Source: an uncultured Pseudophaeobacter sp. (GTDB lineage: Bacteria; Pseudomonadota; Alphaproteobacteria; Rhodobacterales; Rhodobacteraceae). Taken from it: 64,000 bases of DNA. Below, piece by piece: positions 29,663-38,949 of this stretch. The translations under genes were made by a program, and so were the position numbers. Position 1 is the stretch's first letter; every line of letters begins with the position of its first letter. The notes beneath the pieces are model-generated. The model worked only from the letters and a program-made list of their open reading frames with translations, was not told where the DNA came from and ran no database searches. Location of the stretch: positions 62,001 to 126,000 of the forward strand of contig CAJQNB010000017.1 in NCBI GenBank assembly GCA_905479575.1, written 5' to 3'.

Positions 29663-30492
29663 CGCAAAGCCGCCGCCCTGGTCGCGTCATCCACATCCGG
29701 GCGCTGACCAAACCAACGTTCAAATCCCGGCACCGCCTGATGCAGCAACATGCCCAAACCATCAACCACAGTGCAGCCGACATCTTCGGCGGCCTGCAAC
29801 AGGTCGGTTTTGAGTGGGGAATAGATCAGATCAGTCACCACCATATGCGGCTTTAACCCATCCAATGGCACCCGCAGGCGCGGTTTTCCCACCATACCCA
29901 GCGAGGTGGTGTTTACCACCAAAGCTGCCTCTTCGATAATGTTGCCGGCCAGAACCCAGTCAACAACTTGAATACGCTTGCCAAATTCCTTTTGGAGCTG
30001 CTCAGCCCGGTCGCGGGTGCGATTGGAGAGCAGGATTTCCGGCACTCCAGCCTCAATCAGCGATGCCACCACCGCGCGGCAGGCCCCACCAGCCCCAAGA
30101 ACCGCTGCAGGGCCACTGCCCGGAACCCAATCCGGCGCGCCCTGATGCAGGTTGGTGATAAAGCCATAGCCATCGGTATTATCTGCCAGGATACTGCCAT
30201 CACTGCGAAAGATCACGGTATTAGCAGCACCCATCAATTTGGCCCGGTCGGTGACTTTATCCGCAATCTTCATCACCGCTTCTTTGTGCGGGATGGTGAC
30301 GTTGACGCCAACAAACCCTGCCTTTGGCAGGGTGCGGATCACAGTCTCCAGGTCTTCCGGCTCCACATGCATCGGGATATAATGCCCAGCGATGCCATAC
30401 GTCTCGAGCCAATGCCTCTGTAACTGTGGCGATTTGGAATGCGCTACCGGACAGCCAATCACACCGGCCAGAGGGATTTTTTTATCACTCAT
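29659..30492 (-). CDS. aroE: Shikimate dehydrogenase
   Basis: 277 residues. Shikimate site AHSKSPQLQRHWL and VNVTIPHKEAV, NADP fold VLGAGGACRAVV, LSNRTRDRAEQL and the C-terminal VDGLGMLLHQAVPGFERWFG. Reduces 3-dehydroshikimate in aromatic amino-acid synthesis. Overlaps maf by four bases. Confidence 0.95.
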   Translation of the reverse strand: MSDKKIPLAGVIGCPVAHSKSPQLQRHWLETYGIAGHYIPMHVEPEDLETVIRTLPKAGFVGVNVTIPHKEAVMKIADKVTDRAKLMGAANTVIFRSDGSILADNTDGYGFITNLHQGAPDWVPGSGPAAVLGAGGACRAVVASLIEAGVPEILLSNRTRDRAEQLQKEFGKRIQVVDWVLAGNIIEEAALVVNTTSLGMVGKPRLRVPLDGLKPHMVVTDLIYSPLKTDLLQAAEDVGCTVVDGLGMLLHQAVPGFERWFGQRPDVDDATRAAALR

Positions 30493-31088
30493 TGTTCAAT
30501 GACACCCTGTAGTCCCAAGTAGTTGAGGAGTTCTACCAGAGGTAGACCCAAAACATTAAAGTAACTCCCTTCAATGTTAGAAAACAAGCGTACGCCTTCT
30601 TCTTCCAACTTATAAGCGCCCACCGCGTGCTGGATGCTCTGCCAGTTGCGCGCCACATAAGAGGATAGATAGCTGTCCGAACAGTTGTGCATTCGCAGCC
30701 GCACCTGACCAACATGACGCCAGATCGGTTCCCCATCCTGGTAGATCACAGCAGCCGACAGTAGCATGTGACGTTTGCCACGCATGGCGCTAAGCTGAGC
30801 CAGCGCTTCTTCTTCGCTTTTGGGCTTGGACAGCAAGCTGCCTTCAAAATCCAGCACCTGATCACACCCCAGGACCAGCGGGCCGGGGGTTTTCATGCTC
30901 ACCTTGCGTGCTTTTGCCTCGGCCAGGGCATCGGCAATATCGCGCGGATCAGCGGCTTCGGCCAAAAGCGCCGCTTTGATCGCTTCTTCATCAACGCGGG
31001 CGACCTGGACCTCAAAGGGCACACCAGCCTGACGCAGAAGCTGCGCTCGGATCTCGGAACCAGAAGCCAGCAGGATGTGGGCAGACAT
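30489..31088 (-). CDS. maf: Maf-family nucleotide pyrophosphatase
   Basis: 199 residues from ATG 31088. ILLASGSEIRAQLL at the N-terminus, GCDQVLDFEG catalytic centre and YKLEEEGVRLFSNIEGSYFNVLGLPL near the end. Maf proteins remove non-canonical nucleoside triphosphates. A longer open frame runs upstream into the origin region but lacks family similarity. First gene of the leftward operon; its 5' end borders the predicted origin. Confidence 0.93.
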   Translation of the reverse strand: MSAHILLASGSEIRAQLLRQAGVPFEVQVARVDEEAIKAALLAEAADPRDIADALAEAKARKVSMKTPGPLVLGCDQVLDFEGSLLSKPKSEEEALAQLSAMRGKRHMLLSAAVIYQDGEPIWRHVGQVRLRMHNCSDSYLSSYVARNWQSIQHAVGAYKLEEEGVRLFSNIEGSYFNVLGLPLVELLNYLGLQGVIEQ

Positions 31089-31500
31089 GTGGAAAACCCC
31101 ATGGAAAAGATGCGAAAGTTTATAGGATGGTTTGTATGGTTTTCCCAGATTTTGGCAAGTGCACAGGGAAAAGGGAAATTCCACCAAACTGCGCGCTGAT
31201 TCCTCCGCCGGGGATTGGGATAACTTCTGAAGTCGGGATATCTTGTTCGTCCCCGATTCCTCCAAAGGTTATCCCCATGGTAATCTAGGTTAAAAAATCG
31301 TTAATTATCCTTATTCATAAGGGTGTTAACCAAAGTGTCACCAATGTGGCGGCAATGAGGCCGCCTAGTTTTCCCCACTGGGGATAAGCGGGTGAAAAAC
31401 TGAATAATCCACTGAAATCCTTGTCCCTACAAAAACATCATCCTTTAAATCTTTCTTTATTATTATAAGGGTGGGTCATCTAAGCGTGAGAGAGAGACCG
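31089..31500. other. Predicted chromosome replication origin
   Basis: About 410 AT-rich bases between divergent maf and hemJ, in the gene neighbourhood that holds the origin in Caulobacter and relatives. Seen: TGTGGAAAA (31088-31096, reverse of TTTTCCACA), TTATCCCCA (31269-31277) and its reverse TGGGGATAA (31379-31387), TTATTCATA (31311-31319), all 8-9 of 9 matches to relaxed DnaA boxes; CtrA motif 31290-31304 and one-mismatch CtrA motif 31445-31459; GATTCCTCC direct repeats (31198-31206, 31255-31263); an AT-rich run 31444-31469 suited to unwinding. Genes on both sides point outward. The Caulobacter flanking hemE is absent here. Confidence 0.75.
31290..31304. promoter_or_regulatory. Perfect CtrA-binding motif in the predicted origin
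   Basis: TTAA (31290-31293), seven bases, TTAA (31301-31304). In Caulobacter CtrA binds several such sites in the origin and silences replication in swarmer cells. A second, one-mismatch copy (TTAA-N7-TTTA) is at 31445-31459 in the AT-rich run. Confidence 0.6.
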
Positions 31501-31956
31501 ATGGACCTGACAGACTGGATGTTCACCCTCTACCCATATGCCAAATCGCTGCACATCATGGCGGTGCTCAGCTGGATGGCGGGTTTATTCTATCTCCCAC
31601 GGCTGTTTGTGTATCACGTGGAGCAGGCTGAGAAGGTTCCTGAAAGCCTGTCGATCTTTGTGACCATGGAACATAAATTGCACCGTTTCATCATGCGCCC
31701 AGCGATGATGGCGACATGGGGGGCAGGGCTGTTCATGGCGGCGACGCCTGGATTGGTCGATTGGGGCTCTGTGTGGCCCTGGAGCAAGGCTCTGGCGGTG
31801 ATTGGTATGACCTGGTTCCACTATTGGCTTTTGATGCGTCAGCGGGACTTTGCTGCAGGGAAAAACAGGTTCACTGGGCGACGCTACCGCCTGATGAACG
31901 AAGTCCCGACGCTTTTGATGGTGGTGATTGTGATCTCGGTGATCTTCAAGTTCTGA
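31501..31956 (+). CDS. hemJ: Protoporphyrinogen IX oxidase HemJ
   Basis: 151 residues with four membrane segments. Conserved SLHIMAVLSWMAGLFYLPRLFVYH near the N-terminus includes the histidines that ligate haem b; RRYRLMNEVPTLLMVVIVI closes it. Oxidises protoporphyrinogen IX in haem synthesis, typical of alphaproteobacteria. ATG 31501 fits the family start; an upstream GTG (31471) is less likely. Right-hand border of the origin region. Confidence 0.92.
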   Translation: MDLTDWMFTLYPYAKSLHIMAVLSWMAGLFYLPRLFVYHVEQAEKVPESLSIFVTMEHKLHRFIMRPAMMATWGAGLFMAATPGLVDWGSVWPWSKALAVIGMTWFHYWLLMRQRDFAAGKNRFTGRRYRLMNEVPTLLMVVIVISVIFKF

Positions 31957-34735: not shown

Positions 34736-36619
34736 GTGTTTCACGTGAAACATTCAGATTTTGATGTCGTCGTCATTGGTGGAGGTCACGCAGGAAGCGA
34801 GGCAGCCCATGCTTCGGCGCGCATGGGCGCGCGTACAGCCCTCATCACACTAACACGCGATGGTATTGGGGTGATGTCCTGCAACCCAGCCATCGGTGGC
34901 CTGGGTAAAGGCCACCTTGTTCGCGAGATTGACGCGATGGATGGCGTAATGGGGCAAGTAGCTGATCTTGCCGGTATTCAGTTTAGACTGCTCAACCGCC
35001 GCAAAGGCCCTGCTGTTCAGGGCCCCCGTGCGCAATCTGACCGCGGTATCTATCGTCGTGAAATGCTCAAAAGAACAGAATCCCAAGAGAACCTTGAGAT
35101 CATCGAGGGGGAAGCGACAGATTTTTTGATGCAGGGCGCTAAAGTGGGCGGCGTGGTCCTGTCAGATGGAAGTGAAATTCACAGCAGGTTCGTAATCTTA
35201 ACGACTGGGACGTTCCTACGGGGGGTGATCCATATTGGCGATGTGTCAAAGCCTGGTGGCCGAATGGGGGATCGACCTTCGGTAAAACTGGCAGAACGGT
35301 TGGACAGCTTTGAACTACCGATGGGTCGACTAAAGACCGGCACGCCACCGCGCCTGGATGGGCGCACGATCAACTGGGATATCCTCGAAGGACAGCCAGG
35401 AGATGAGGATCCCACCTTCTTCTCCTTTATGACAAAGGCGTTGTCGGCCAAACAGGTTATCTGCGGCATTACGCACACCAATGAAAAAACCCACGACATT
35501 ATTCGGAAGAACCTTTCTCGATCAGCCATGTATGGTGGGCATATTGATGGTGTTGGTCCCAGGTACTGCCCTTCAATCGAGGACAAAATTGTCCGATTTG
35601 CAGATAAGACCTCGCATCAGATTTTCTTGGAACCCGAGGGGGCGACGGATCACACCGTTTATCCAAACGGAATTTCGACAAGCCTACCAGTGGATGTACA
35701 GTCGGATTACGTTCGTTCAATTGTCGGATTGGAAAAGGCAGAAATTCTGCAGCCGGGGTATGCGATCGAATATGACTATATTGATCCTCGGGCGCTTTCC
35801 TTGGACCTATCACTTAAAGATGTTCCAGGTCTATATCTAGCGGGGCAGATCAACGGCACTACAGGATATGAGGAGGCGGCTGCGCAAGGTTTGGTTGCTG
35901 GCCTTAGTGCTGCCGCTAAATGTCGGGATGAAGAGCCGGTAATGTTTGGCCGGTCCAACAGCTACATTGGTGTCATGGTTGATGATCTTACCACGCATGG
36001 CGTTACAGAACCCTACCGTATGTTTACCTCGCGGGCTGAATTCCGTCTATCCCTGCGCGCGGATAATGCGGATCAAAGGCTAACACCTCTTGCGATTGAG
36101 GCAGGGTGCATCTCTGAAGAGAGAAGGATAGCCTTTTCGGAAAAGCTGGACCGTTTGGAAACCACCCGAAACGGTCTGGAAGCTGCTGTATTCACACCAA
36201 AGCAGATTTCGGCAGCGGGGATCTACGTCAATCAGGACGGGAACAAGAGAACATGTTTTGAAGTTCTTGCTTTCCCTGATGTAGGGTTTGAAGATCTCAT
36301 CCCTTTGCTTCCAGATATCGCTGATACAGATATCGAGACAATGCGGCAATTGGAGAGAGACGCGCTATATGTGCACTATATTGCGCGTCAGGAGAAAGAG
36401 ATCGCAGCGGTCAAGCGTGACGAAGGCCATGTGATCCCAGATGATTTTGATTATACAGCTATCGAAGGTCTTTCGGCGGAGTTACAACAGAAACTGACCG
36501 TCGCAAGACCTGAGACCTTGGCAAAGGCCAGTCGTATCAATGGGATGACGCCAGCAGGGCTGGCTCTGGTGTTGGCGCGGTTGCGTAAGAATATGCGTTC
36601 ACAGGAGAAACTTGGATGA
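34736..36619 (+). CDS. mnmG: tRNA uridine-5-carboxymethylaminomethyl enzyme MnmG (GidA)
   Basis: 627 residues. FAD motif [14 protein letters not shown] (15-20 core), [20 protein letters not shown]-type stretch and C-terminal [17 protein letters not shown]. With MnmE it installs cmnm5/nm5 groups on U34. The GTG start at 34736 has AAGGA just upstream. The first codons are a parS site. The 3' end overlaps rsmG by ATGA. Confidence 0.97.
34737..34752. other. parS site 1 (ParB-binding centromere), overlapping the mnmG start
   Basis: TGTTTCACGTGAAACA, a perfect 16-bp match to the bacterial parS consensus. It begins on the second base of the mnmG GTG start codon, so the protein begins MFHVKH. Lies 3.3 kb from the predicted origin and 2.5 kb from parAB. 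Confidence 0.95.
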
Positions 36620-37236
36620 GCGAGAGAGCTCTGTTAGATCAGTTGAATGTTTCACGTGAAACAATAGAGCGGTTAGAAAAATTCGAGGAGGTTCTGCTAA
36701 AGTGGAACCCGAGAATTAATTTGGTCTCAAAAAGCAGCTTAACAGATCTTTGGCAGAGGCATATCGTAGATTCGGTGCAGGTCTTCACCTGCGTAGAAGA
36801 TGCAGGTGAAAGCTGGGTGGATATCGGCAGCGGCGGCGGGTTCCCGGGAATTGTTGTCGCCATCATGGCTGCAGAACGCTCACCAAAAACCAGGGTTACG
36901 TTGATCGAAAGCGATCAGAGAAAATCGGCTTTTCTGCGAACTGCAGCGCGGGAATGCGGGGTTTCAATTTCTGTACTGACCGAGCGAATTGAACAGGCTG
37001 TGCCACAGAATGCAGATATACTATCCGCGCGTGCGGTTGCTGATCTAGATGCTCTTCTCGAATTTTCCCAACGCCACCTGGCTGTTGACGGTACAGCTGT
37101 GTTCCCCAAAGGGGTGAACTGGAAAAAAGAAGTGGATAAGGCAGCTCAGCGATGGCGATTCGACGTTGAACCAATTACAAGTTTGACTGAGACTGAAGCA
37201 GTTATTCTTAAGATCAAGGGAGTCGCTCGTGCCTGA
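36616..37236 (+). CDS. rsmG: 16S rRNA (guanine527-N7)-methyltransferase RsmG
   Basis: 206 residues. SAM motif [14 protein letters not shown] (67-80), [13 protein letters not shown] and [14 protein letters not shown]. Methylates G527 of 16S rRNA; its loss gives low-level streptomycin resistance. Residues 11-16 (NVSRET) are encoded by a perfect parS site. Overlaps mnmG upstream (ATGA) and parA downstream by 8 bases. Confidence 0.96.
36648..36663. other. parS site 2, inside rsmG
   Basis: A second perfect TGTTTCACGTGAAACA, 1.9 kb right of site 1. Read in a different frame from site 1, it encodes VSRET of RsmG. Confidence 0.95.
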
Positions 37237-38038
37237 TTTATCCCGCCCGGAGGGGCCTCGAATTATCGCGGTTGCAAATCAAAAGGGCGGGGTGGGTAAG
37301 ACAACAACAGCAATCAACCTCGCGGCCGCTTTGGTTGAGACAGGACTACGAGTGTTGGTGGTGGATCTGGACCCCCAGGGGAATGCTTCCACCGGCTTGG
37401 GCATCGAGAGTGCGGATCGAGACGCCACTACATATGATCTGTTGGTTGATGACGCCCCACTAAATGAAGTGATTCGTACTACGGAAATCGAAGACCTTTG
37501 CGTGATTCCTGCGACTGTCGACCTTAGCTCCGCTGATATTGAGCTTTTTGCCAATGAAAAGCGGAGCTTCTTGCTGCATGATGCGTTGCGGCAAACGGCG
37601 ATGGACGAATACGATTGGGATTATGTGCTGATCGACTGTCCACCTTCTCTTAACCTGTTGACCGTCAATGCGATGGTAGCCTCCCATTCGGTGTTGATCC
37701 CCTTGCAGAGCGAATTTTTTGCCCTGGAAGGTGTGTCGCAACTGCTGCTCACAATTCGGGAAGTGCGGCAATCGGCCAATCCGGATCTGCGGATAGAAGG
37801 GGTGGTTTTGACGATGTTTGACCGCCGCAATAACTTGTCGCAGCAGGTTGAACAGGATGCGCGAGACAATCTGGGCGATCTGGTTTTTCAAACAAAAATC
37901 CCACGCAATGTGCGGGTCAGCGAGGCCCCGTCCTACGCTTTGCCAGTGCTCAACTATGATAGCAACTCCCTAGGGGCAAAGGCGTACCGTGCTTTGGCGC
38001 AAGAGTTGATATCGAATAACCAAACAGTCGCGGCTTGA
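37229..38038 (+). CDS. parA: Chromosome partitioning ATPase ParA
   Basis: 269 residues. Deviant Walker A KGGVGKTT (19-26), DLDPQGNASTGLG, LIDCPPSLNLLTVNAM. Forms DNA-bound gradients that move ParB-parS complexes, separating origins. GTG start at 37229 within the rsmG end. Followed by parB after 14 bases. Confidence 0.97.
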   Translation: MPDLSRPEGPRIIAVANQKGGVGKTTTAINLAAALVETGLRVLVVDLDPQGNASTGLGIESADRDATTYDLLVDDAPLNEVIRTTEIEDLCVIPATVDLSSADIELFANEKRSFLLHDALRQTAMDEYDWDYVLIDCPPSLNLLTVNAMVASHSVLIPLQSEFFALEGVSQLLLTIREVRQSANPDLRIEGVVLTMFDRRNNLSQQVEQDARDNLGDLVFQTKIPRNVRVSEAPSYALPVLNYDSNSLGAKAYRALAQELISNNQTVAA

Positions 38039-38052
38039 GAGCGGAGTAGAAA

Positions 38053-38949
38053 ATGTCAGAGAAAAGAAACAAACCCCGCGGATTGGGCCGTGGCCTGTCT
38101 GCCTTGATGGCGGATGTGAATTCGGAACCGGTGAGCACAGAAGTGCAGGCCGCACGAAACGCAGAGGTTCTGGTCCCGATCGAGAAGGTGATTGCCAACC
38201 CTGATCAGCCGCGCCGTCAATTCCTGCAAGAGGATCTTGATGATCTGACGGCATCGATCAAGGAAAAGGGGGTCCTGCAGCCCCTGATCGTGCGGCCTCG
38301 GGACGGCGACATGTATGAAATTGTTGCGGGTGAGCGGCGCTGGCGCGCGGCCCAGGCGGCACAGCTGCACGAAGTTCCGGTTCTTATTCGGGACTATTCG
38401 GATGTCGAGATGATGGAAGTTGCCATCATTGAAAACATCCAGCGCTCTGATTTGAATGCAATGGAAGAAGCCCAGAGCTATAAACAGCTGATGGAACGCT
38501 TTGGCCATACCCAGGAACGCATGGCAGAGGCGCTGGGGAAAAGCCGGAGCCATATTGCCAATTTGGTCAGGCTGCTGCACCTGCCAGAGGACGTGCGCGC
38601 CCTGGTCAATGACCGTAAACTGTCAGCGGGCCATGCGCGGGCTTTGATCACCTCGGACAATGCCTCTGAACTGGCGAGTAAAATTGTCAAAGGCGGGTTG
38701 TCGGTCCGGGCTACGGAAGCTTTGGTGAAAAAGGATGCCGCCGGGCTTCAGGCTTCTGCGGCTCCGCGCAGGTCGCCACGGTCAACAGATAAGGATGCAG
38801 ATACCAAGGCGTTAGAGGGCGATCTTTCTGCCATTCTACGGATGAAGGTGTCGATTGATCACAAGGCAGGTGGCGAAAGCGGATCTGTCACCATTAGCTA
38901 TGAGACGCTCGATCAGCTGGATGAGATTTGTAACATCCTGAGCAAATAG
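38053..38949 (+). CDS. parB: Chromosome partitioning protein ParB
   Basis: 298 residues. N-terminal CTPase domain with [12 protein letters not shown] and the GERRWRAAQ box, helix-turn-helix [17 protein letters not shown] that reads parS, and C-terminal dimerisation domain. Acts as a CTP-dependent clamp loading at the two parS sites nearby. Its stop codon abuts the stop of the DUF454 gene with no gap. Confidence 0.97.

Follow-up and report, generated by a model that had tools for sequence, protein, structure and literature searches.

A predicted chromosomal replication origin between maf and hemJ in a Rhodobacteraceae bacterium

The locus studied here is a 412-bp intergenic gap within a 64,000-nucleotide stretch of DNA from an uncultured Pseudophaeobacter sp., which we call the window. 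It is bounded on one side by maf (30489-31088, minus strand) and on the other by hemJ, which begins with an ATG at 31501 on the plus strand. An initial annotation had described an AT-rich gap with outward-facing genes, and this description holds: maf and hemJ are divergent, and the GC content is 43.9% in the gap versus 57.2% across the 64-kb window. The same annotation placed the gap within an alphaproteobacterial origin gene set. Eight of the ten neighbors scanned (dnaQ, coaE, maf, rho, mnmE, mnmG, rsmG, and the ParB domain) exceed their NCBIfam cut-offs and bear out that assignment, whereas HemJ (126.0 bits against its own cut-off of 138.05) and ParA (among the matches listed) fall below theirs. 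The gene hemE, said to be missing from the flank, indeed sits on another contig (C69) of the assembly, a draft of 97 contigs. The features of the region are listed below, with invariant columns counted over 11 congeneric rows.

31089-31500, no strand: entire maf-hemJ gap, predicted oriC region (cumulative G-C minimum at 31001, congener skew minimum, GC 43.9%)
31088-31096, minus: DnaA-box-like TTTTCCACA, overlapping the maf start (9/9 columns invariant)
31198-31206, plus: first GATTCCTCC repeat, containing a GANTC (CcrM-type) site (9/9 invariant)
31215-31223, minus: DnaA-box-like TTATCCCAA (7/9 invariant)
31255-31263, plus: second GATTCCTCC repeat, containing a GANTC site (8/9 invariant)
31269-31277, plus: DnaA-box-like TTATCCCCA (8/9 invariant)
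31290-31304, no strand: TTAA-N7-TTAA, candidate CtrA site (arms 8/8, spacer 1/7 invariant)
31371-31469, plus: conserved core module of the predicted origin, comprising a DnaA box, a 13-bp spacer, CTAC, ATCATC, and an AT-rich run (model R1)
31379-31387, minus: DnaA-box-like TTATCCCCA, the mirror copy (9/9 invariant)
31405-31413, plus: DnaA-box-like TAATCCACT, the box of the module, with two mismatches to TTATCCACA (7/9 invariant)
31426-31442, plus: CCTACAAAAACATCATC (16/17 invariant)
31443-31475, plus: AT-rich stretch, probable DNA unwinding element (predicted; 23/33 invariant)
34737-34752, no strand: parS, exact 16-bp palindrome TGTTTCACGTGAAACA at the start of mnmG
36648-36663, no strand: parS, exact 16-bp palindrome TGTTTCACGTGAAACA near the start of rsmG
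37229-38038, plus: parA-like partition ATPase (ParA-family matches, none over its own curated cut-off among the 25 listed of 31)
38053-38949, plus: parB (TIGR00180, scoring 193 bits, cut-off 58.45)

Both copies of TTATCCCCA that had been reported, at 31269 on the plus strand and in mirror orientation at 31379, are present, and they are the sole two in 64 kb, where 0.28 copies would be expected and 3 of 100 shuffles reach two. Altogether, the gap and its left edge hold five 9-mers that differ from TTATCCACA or TTATCCCCA at no more than one position, the highest density of such boxes in any 412-bp stretch of the window; among 17,248 overlapping 412-bp stretches from 88 other loci, none has more than four. 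The gap therefore contains the DnaA box cluster expected of an oriC, though its boxes are degenerate and a perfect TTATCCACA occurs nowhere in the 64-kb window.

Alignment of 11 congeneric gaps leaves 201 of 403 columns invariant. One of the candidate box 9-mers, TTTTCCCCA at 31369, lacks any invariant column there and is probably a chance occurrence. The box TAATCCACT at 31405 and the TTAA-N7-TTAA site, in turn, were both missing from the earlier list. The ATCC of TAATCCACT is invariant in all 44 chosen rows from other genera, and a CTA (31427-31429) begins 13 bp past this box. The AT-rich run noted earlier at 31444-31469 is present within the longer stretch at 31443-31475, which is conserved in the genus and adjoins the boxes as the predicted unwinding element of an oriC should. 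The pair of GATTCCTCC repeats is a genus feature, found in just 5 of 100 other-genus gaps. GANTC sites, one of which lies in each repeat, show no clear enrichment in nine genus gaps (22 versus a shuffle mean of 14.4 and a largest shuffled value of 25), nor are they enriched in the 100 gaps from other genera (153 versus a shuffle mean of 174.4).

GC skew, which the initial annotation had named as a check on origin function, was analyzed within the available data, and the outcome supports an origin at the gap. On the window's own contig, of which 224,000 of 279,263 bases were read at a sampling step of 250 bp, the sampled cumulative G-C minimum falls at window position 31001. Third-position skew, read on the plus strand for 55 mechanically chosen ORFs in both orientations, increases rightward on both strands, from 0.023 to 0.19 for minus-strand ORFs and from -0.065 to 0.077 for plus-strand ORFs. 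Because it rises for both orientations, gene orientation or transcription alone does not explain the minimum. In two congeners (G003 and G008), for which the largest contig was taken as the chromosome and 40 bins, each 20 kb long, were sampled, the cumulative skew minimum lies at the homologous gap, in a bin ending inside the gap in G003 and between the two bins flanking it in G008. The skew maximum is 2.07 of 4.12 Mb away in G003 and 2.04 of 4.22 Mb away in G008, or about half of the contig. Strand composition switches at this site, as is expected at an oriC.

The initial annotation had also reported parS sites 3-5 kb from the gap, and two exact copies of TGTTTCACGTGAAACA are indeed found at 34737 and 36648, against 0.01 expected in the window. 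In all 13 genomes searched (our own, ten congeners, and two from other genera), exact parS occurs exactly twice, and neither copy is more than about 6 kb from the homologue of the gap. The 9-mer TGTTTCACG, one of the DnaA box motifs with which a survey predicted Rhodobacteraceae origins according to the available text of PMC6699656, is the left part of this palindrome (34737-34752 and 36648-36663). Origin predictions that used TGTTTCACG may therefore have counted parS as DnaA boxes.

To follow the gap beyond the genus, we turned to a profile model, since a nucleotide search with window positions 31050-31560 retrieved 13 of 60 genomes (our own included) and reached only the genus and two other genera. 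We collected 123 gap candidates, of which 116 remained after removal of seven without a maf match and 109 (nine from the genus and 100 from other genera) after removal of four identical and three near-identical copies, the window's own among them. The model, R1, is built from sequence only and represents the hemJ-proximal ~100 bp of 44 other-genus gaps. The underlying alignment (A4) comprises 44 loci hand-picked from 80 whose hemJ-proximal parts looked alignable, so R1 matches in these species or their very close relatives do not count as independent; the A4 loci include none from the eleven genomes that represent the genus of the window.

In our own genome, positions 31371-31469 are the sole R1 match at E ≤ 1 (E = 2.5e-18; 150 of 312 first-look candidates scored), and each of 13 genomes yields one strong match. 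The number of first-look candidates scored was at most 150 per genome for the 13 genomes, 20 for the class search, and 33 for the family search. At E ≤ 0.001, R1 matches 85 of 120 family genomes (86 matches), with no match in the other 35 under the stricter filters of the large searches. Under the same filters, a match is absent from 25 of the 92 family genomes that have a strong HemJ match, defined by a line that we drew at E ≤ 1e-29. In the class-wide search, 27 of 190 genomes match and 163 do not at the 0.001 threshold, again with the stricter filters. In genomes with a strong HemJ match, 66 of 68 R1 matches precede it by 15-99 bp and share its orientation.

This placement upstream of a HemJ match, seen in 66 genomes, speaks for conservation of the divergent promoters and leaders of maf and hemJ with no origin involved, as does the fact that the two divergent genes have the gap in common. 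The behavior of the module where its neighbors change argues otherwise. In all 18 family genomes that have R1 but no strong HemJ match, the module lies between rho and maf. In five Paracoccus loci (L163, L164, L169, L186, and L188), the piece next to hemJ gave no match to maf, and four of the five retain an R1 match beside hemJ, L186 being the exception; aroE is on the far side in three of the five. In one genome (G127, locus L279), the order is rho-hemJ-hemE-module-maf, so that the module adjoins hemE, with a weaker R1 match (E = 4.0e-4). Outside the family, we found 25 R1 loci in 24 genomes, 18 of which adjoin hemE; COG1806 is in the piece for 14 of these 18, hemE and COG1806 having been named by Pfam on a subset. 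Two further out-of-family loci (L238 and L250) have rho together with maf or COG1806, and five of the 25 have none of the expected genes alongside, as is also the case for a second, weak R1 match in G015. A module that is kept amid such changes is more than a hemJ promoter, and the promoter reading further leaves the skew minimum and the parS placement unexplained. We consider it very improbable. That the core stays unmoved as its neighbors shift suggests that it is the origin, rather than the gene order, that is conserved.

The gene orders also point to how the locus may have arisen. One out-of-family locus (L234) reads maf-COG1806-module-hemE-hemJ, which is likely the ancestral order, and the G127 order, with hemE between hemJ and the module, is a possible intermediate of a gene-loss series. 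COG1806 (PF03618) was found in none of five Rhodobacteraceae genomes searched, with a Caulobacter genome as positive control. With hemE elsewhere and COG1806 not found, the maf-hemJ locus looks like the ancestral one minus both genes, and the gap is best read as the Caulobacter-type (Cori) locus after departure of hemE and loss of COG1806.

Two other placements of the origin were weighed. The first locates it in the parS/parAB cluster, at 34.7-39 kb, with the gap as a nearby conserved spacer. The cluster is just 3-5 kb from the gap, and skew discriminates poorly at this scale, with sampled cumulative values as far as 33.7 kb remaining within 50 counts of the minimum; the survey in the accessible portion of PMC6699656 also treated TGTTTCACG, the left part of parS, as a DnaA box. 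Nevertheless, mnmG and rsmG have the parS sites at their starts, both the module and the cluster of boxes are inside the gap, and the cumulative G-C minimum is at 31001, all of which make this placement even harder to credit than a promoter. The second, an origin at dnaA, whose upstream region is a common bacterial origin and which is on our own contig 180 kb off (G000 C17:273547), has a vanishingly small chance of being correct, given that the 4,449-bp dnaA locus contains neither a box with at most one mismatch nor an R1 match, and that dnaA lies in or between negative-skew bins in G003 and G008.

Across these genomes, dnaA is 109-180 kb from the origin gap; it lies toward rho in our own contig but toward maf in both G003 and G008. 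The opposite sides suggest an inversion around the origin, which would produce such an arrangement.

Taken together, the skew minimum, the single-match module, its homologues beside hemE, and the nearby pair of parS sites support the earlier proposal of a replication origin between maf and hemJ, and we infer that replication initiates here. The gap is almost certainly the oriC of this Roseobacter-type member of the Rhodobacteraceae, and both its position and its core sequence are homologous to those of the alphaproteobacterial hemE-COG1806 origin locus. The family membership is indicated by named relatives of HemJ and by a CtrA match of the Rhodobacterales type. By analogy with characterized origins, DnaA would bind the boxes at 31215, 31269, 31379, and 31405, and a DnaA oligomer would grow from the 31405 box across CTAC and ATCATC. 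The oligomer would then open the AT-rich run at 31443-31475, where helicase could be loaded and from which two forks would depart, and ParB bound at the two nearby parS sites would segregate the duplicated origins. The origin of the genus is in this way pinned to a 412-bp fragment, and a model of ~100 bp finds its counterpart in 85 of 120 family genomes without need of hemE, COG1806, dnaA, or perfect DnaA boxes. We regard this origin, with high confidence, as ordinary in kind, expected, and well located.

The candidate CtrA site is a TTAA-N7-TTAA element at 31290-31304 and constitutes a new element here. Its arms are invariant in all 11 congeneric gaps, and invariant arms flanking a variable spacer are what one would expect if a protein bound the site. 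A CtrA orthologue of the Rhodobacterales type is encoded (NF045991; score 433.8 bits, cut-off 350). Against the candidate, the motif shows no genome-wide enrichment: three genomes contain 27, 29, and 35 sites, and the controls 30, 30, and 38. Also against it, only 10 of 100 gaps from other genera contain an exact copy (shuffle mean 1.5), in most cases at a different position within the gap. In five of these loci (L130, L160, L177, L180, and L196), the exact motif is 365-382 bp before hemJ, adjoining maf, rather than mid-gap.

The portion of the perspective article PMC8116508 available to us reports that CtrA loss is harmless to growth in the Rhodobacterales studied and that replication is influenced by CtrA in some members of the order. 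One tentative possibility, which we regard as rather unlikely, is that the genus origin has, flanked by a pair of DnaA boxes, a functional CtrA site at which phosphorylated CtrA delays initiation as in Caulobacter, even though CtrA is dispensable in the Rhodobacterales studied (PMC8116508). If so, CtrA control of oriC would be a retained or regained tunable layer, independent of CtrA essentiality. We found no description of a CtrA site in a Rhodobacterales oriC in the open-licence literature searched, and the candidate site opens a direct test of contact between CtrA and replication in this order.

The maf-hemJ origin module likewise has no description that we could find in the open-licence literature searched. 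Origins of 101 Rhodobacteraceae have been predicted with Ori-Finder from skew and three box motifs (PMC6699656); these predictions concern the same family and presumably the same locus. Unlike the present analysis of the gap, the survey describes no core module in the text available.

A second comparison is with the basal unwinding system (BUS) of Bacillus subtilis and others, which the available part of PMC8287927 defines as a DnaA box with at most two mismatches, a spacer of 0-16 bp, and then at least three NAN trios; 13 bp is the commonest box-to-trio spacer, at which the DnaA-trios begin. Like a BUS as described there, the window has a box with two mismatches, a 13-bp spacer, and then CTA (3'-GAT-5'). 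Unlike a BUS, this CTA is followed by no two further trios, and three NTN triplets (ATCATCCTT) appear, by eye, only 23 bp past the box. The window copy retains the first trio only and so falls outside the strict BUS definition. Several out-of-family loci read CTACTAC at the CTA position, which is the BUS trio pattern as given in that part of PMC8287927.

The closest counterpart is Cori of Caulobacter crescentus, an origin at hemE-COG1806 for which five CtrA sites are reported in the accessible text of PMC1914354. The gap differs from Cori in its flanks, being located between maf and hemJ rather than between hemE and COG1806, and in its single exact, predicted CtrA-type site compared with the five given in that text. 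No exact match to the IHF consensus WATCAN5WTR, an IHF site being a further feature of Cori-type origins, occurs in the gap; L001 has a single match, which falls outside it. In other respects, the two correspond. As at Cori-type origins, the R1 core is found at a hemE locus, in 18 of the 25 out-of-family loci of a search whose scope was genomes other than Caulobacter. The gap shares with Cori, as far as the latter is described in that portion of PMC1914354, its DnaA boxes, an AT-rich stretch, and a TTAA-N7-TTAA site, and the syntenic locus is identical once hemE and COG1806 are removed.
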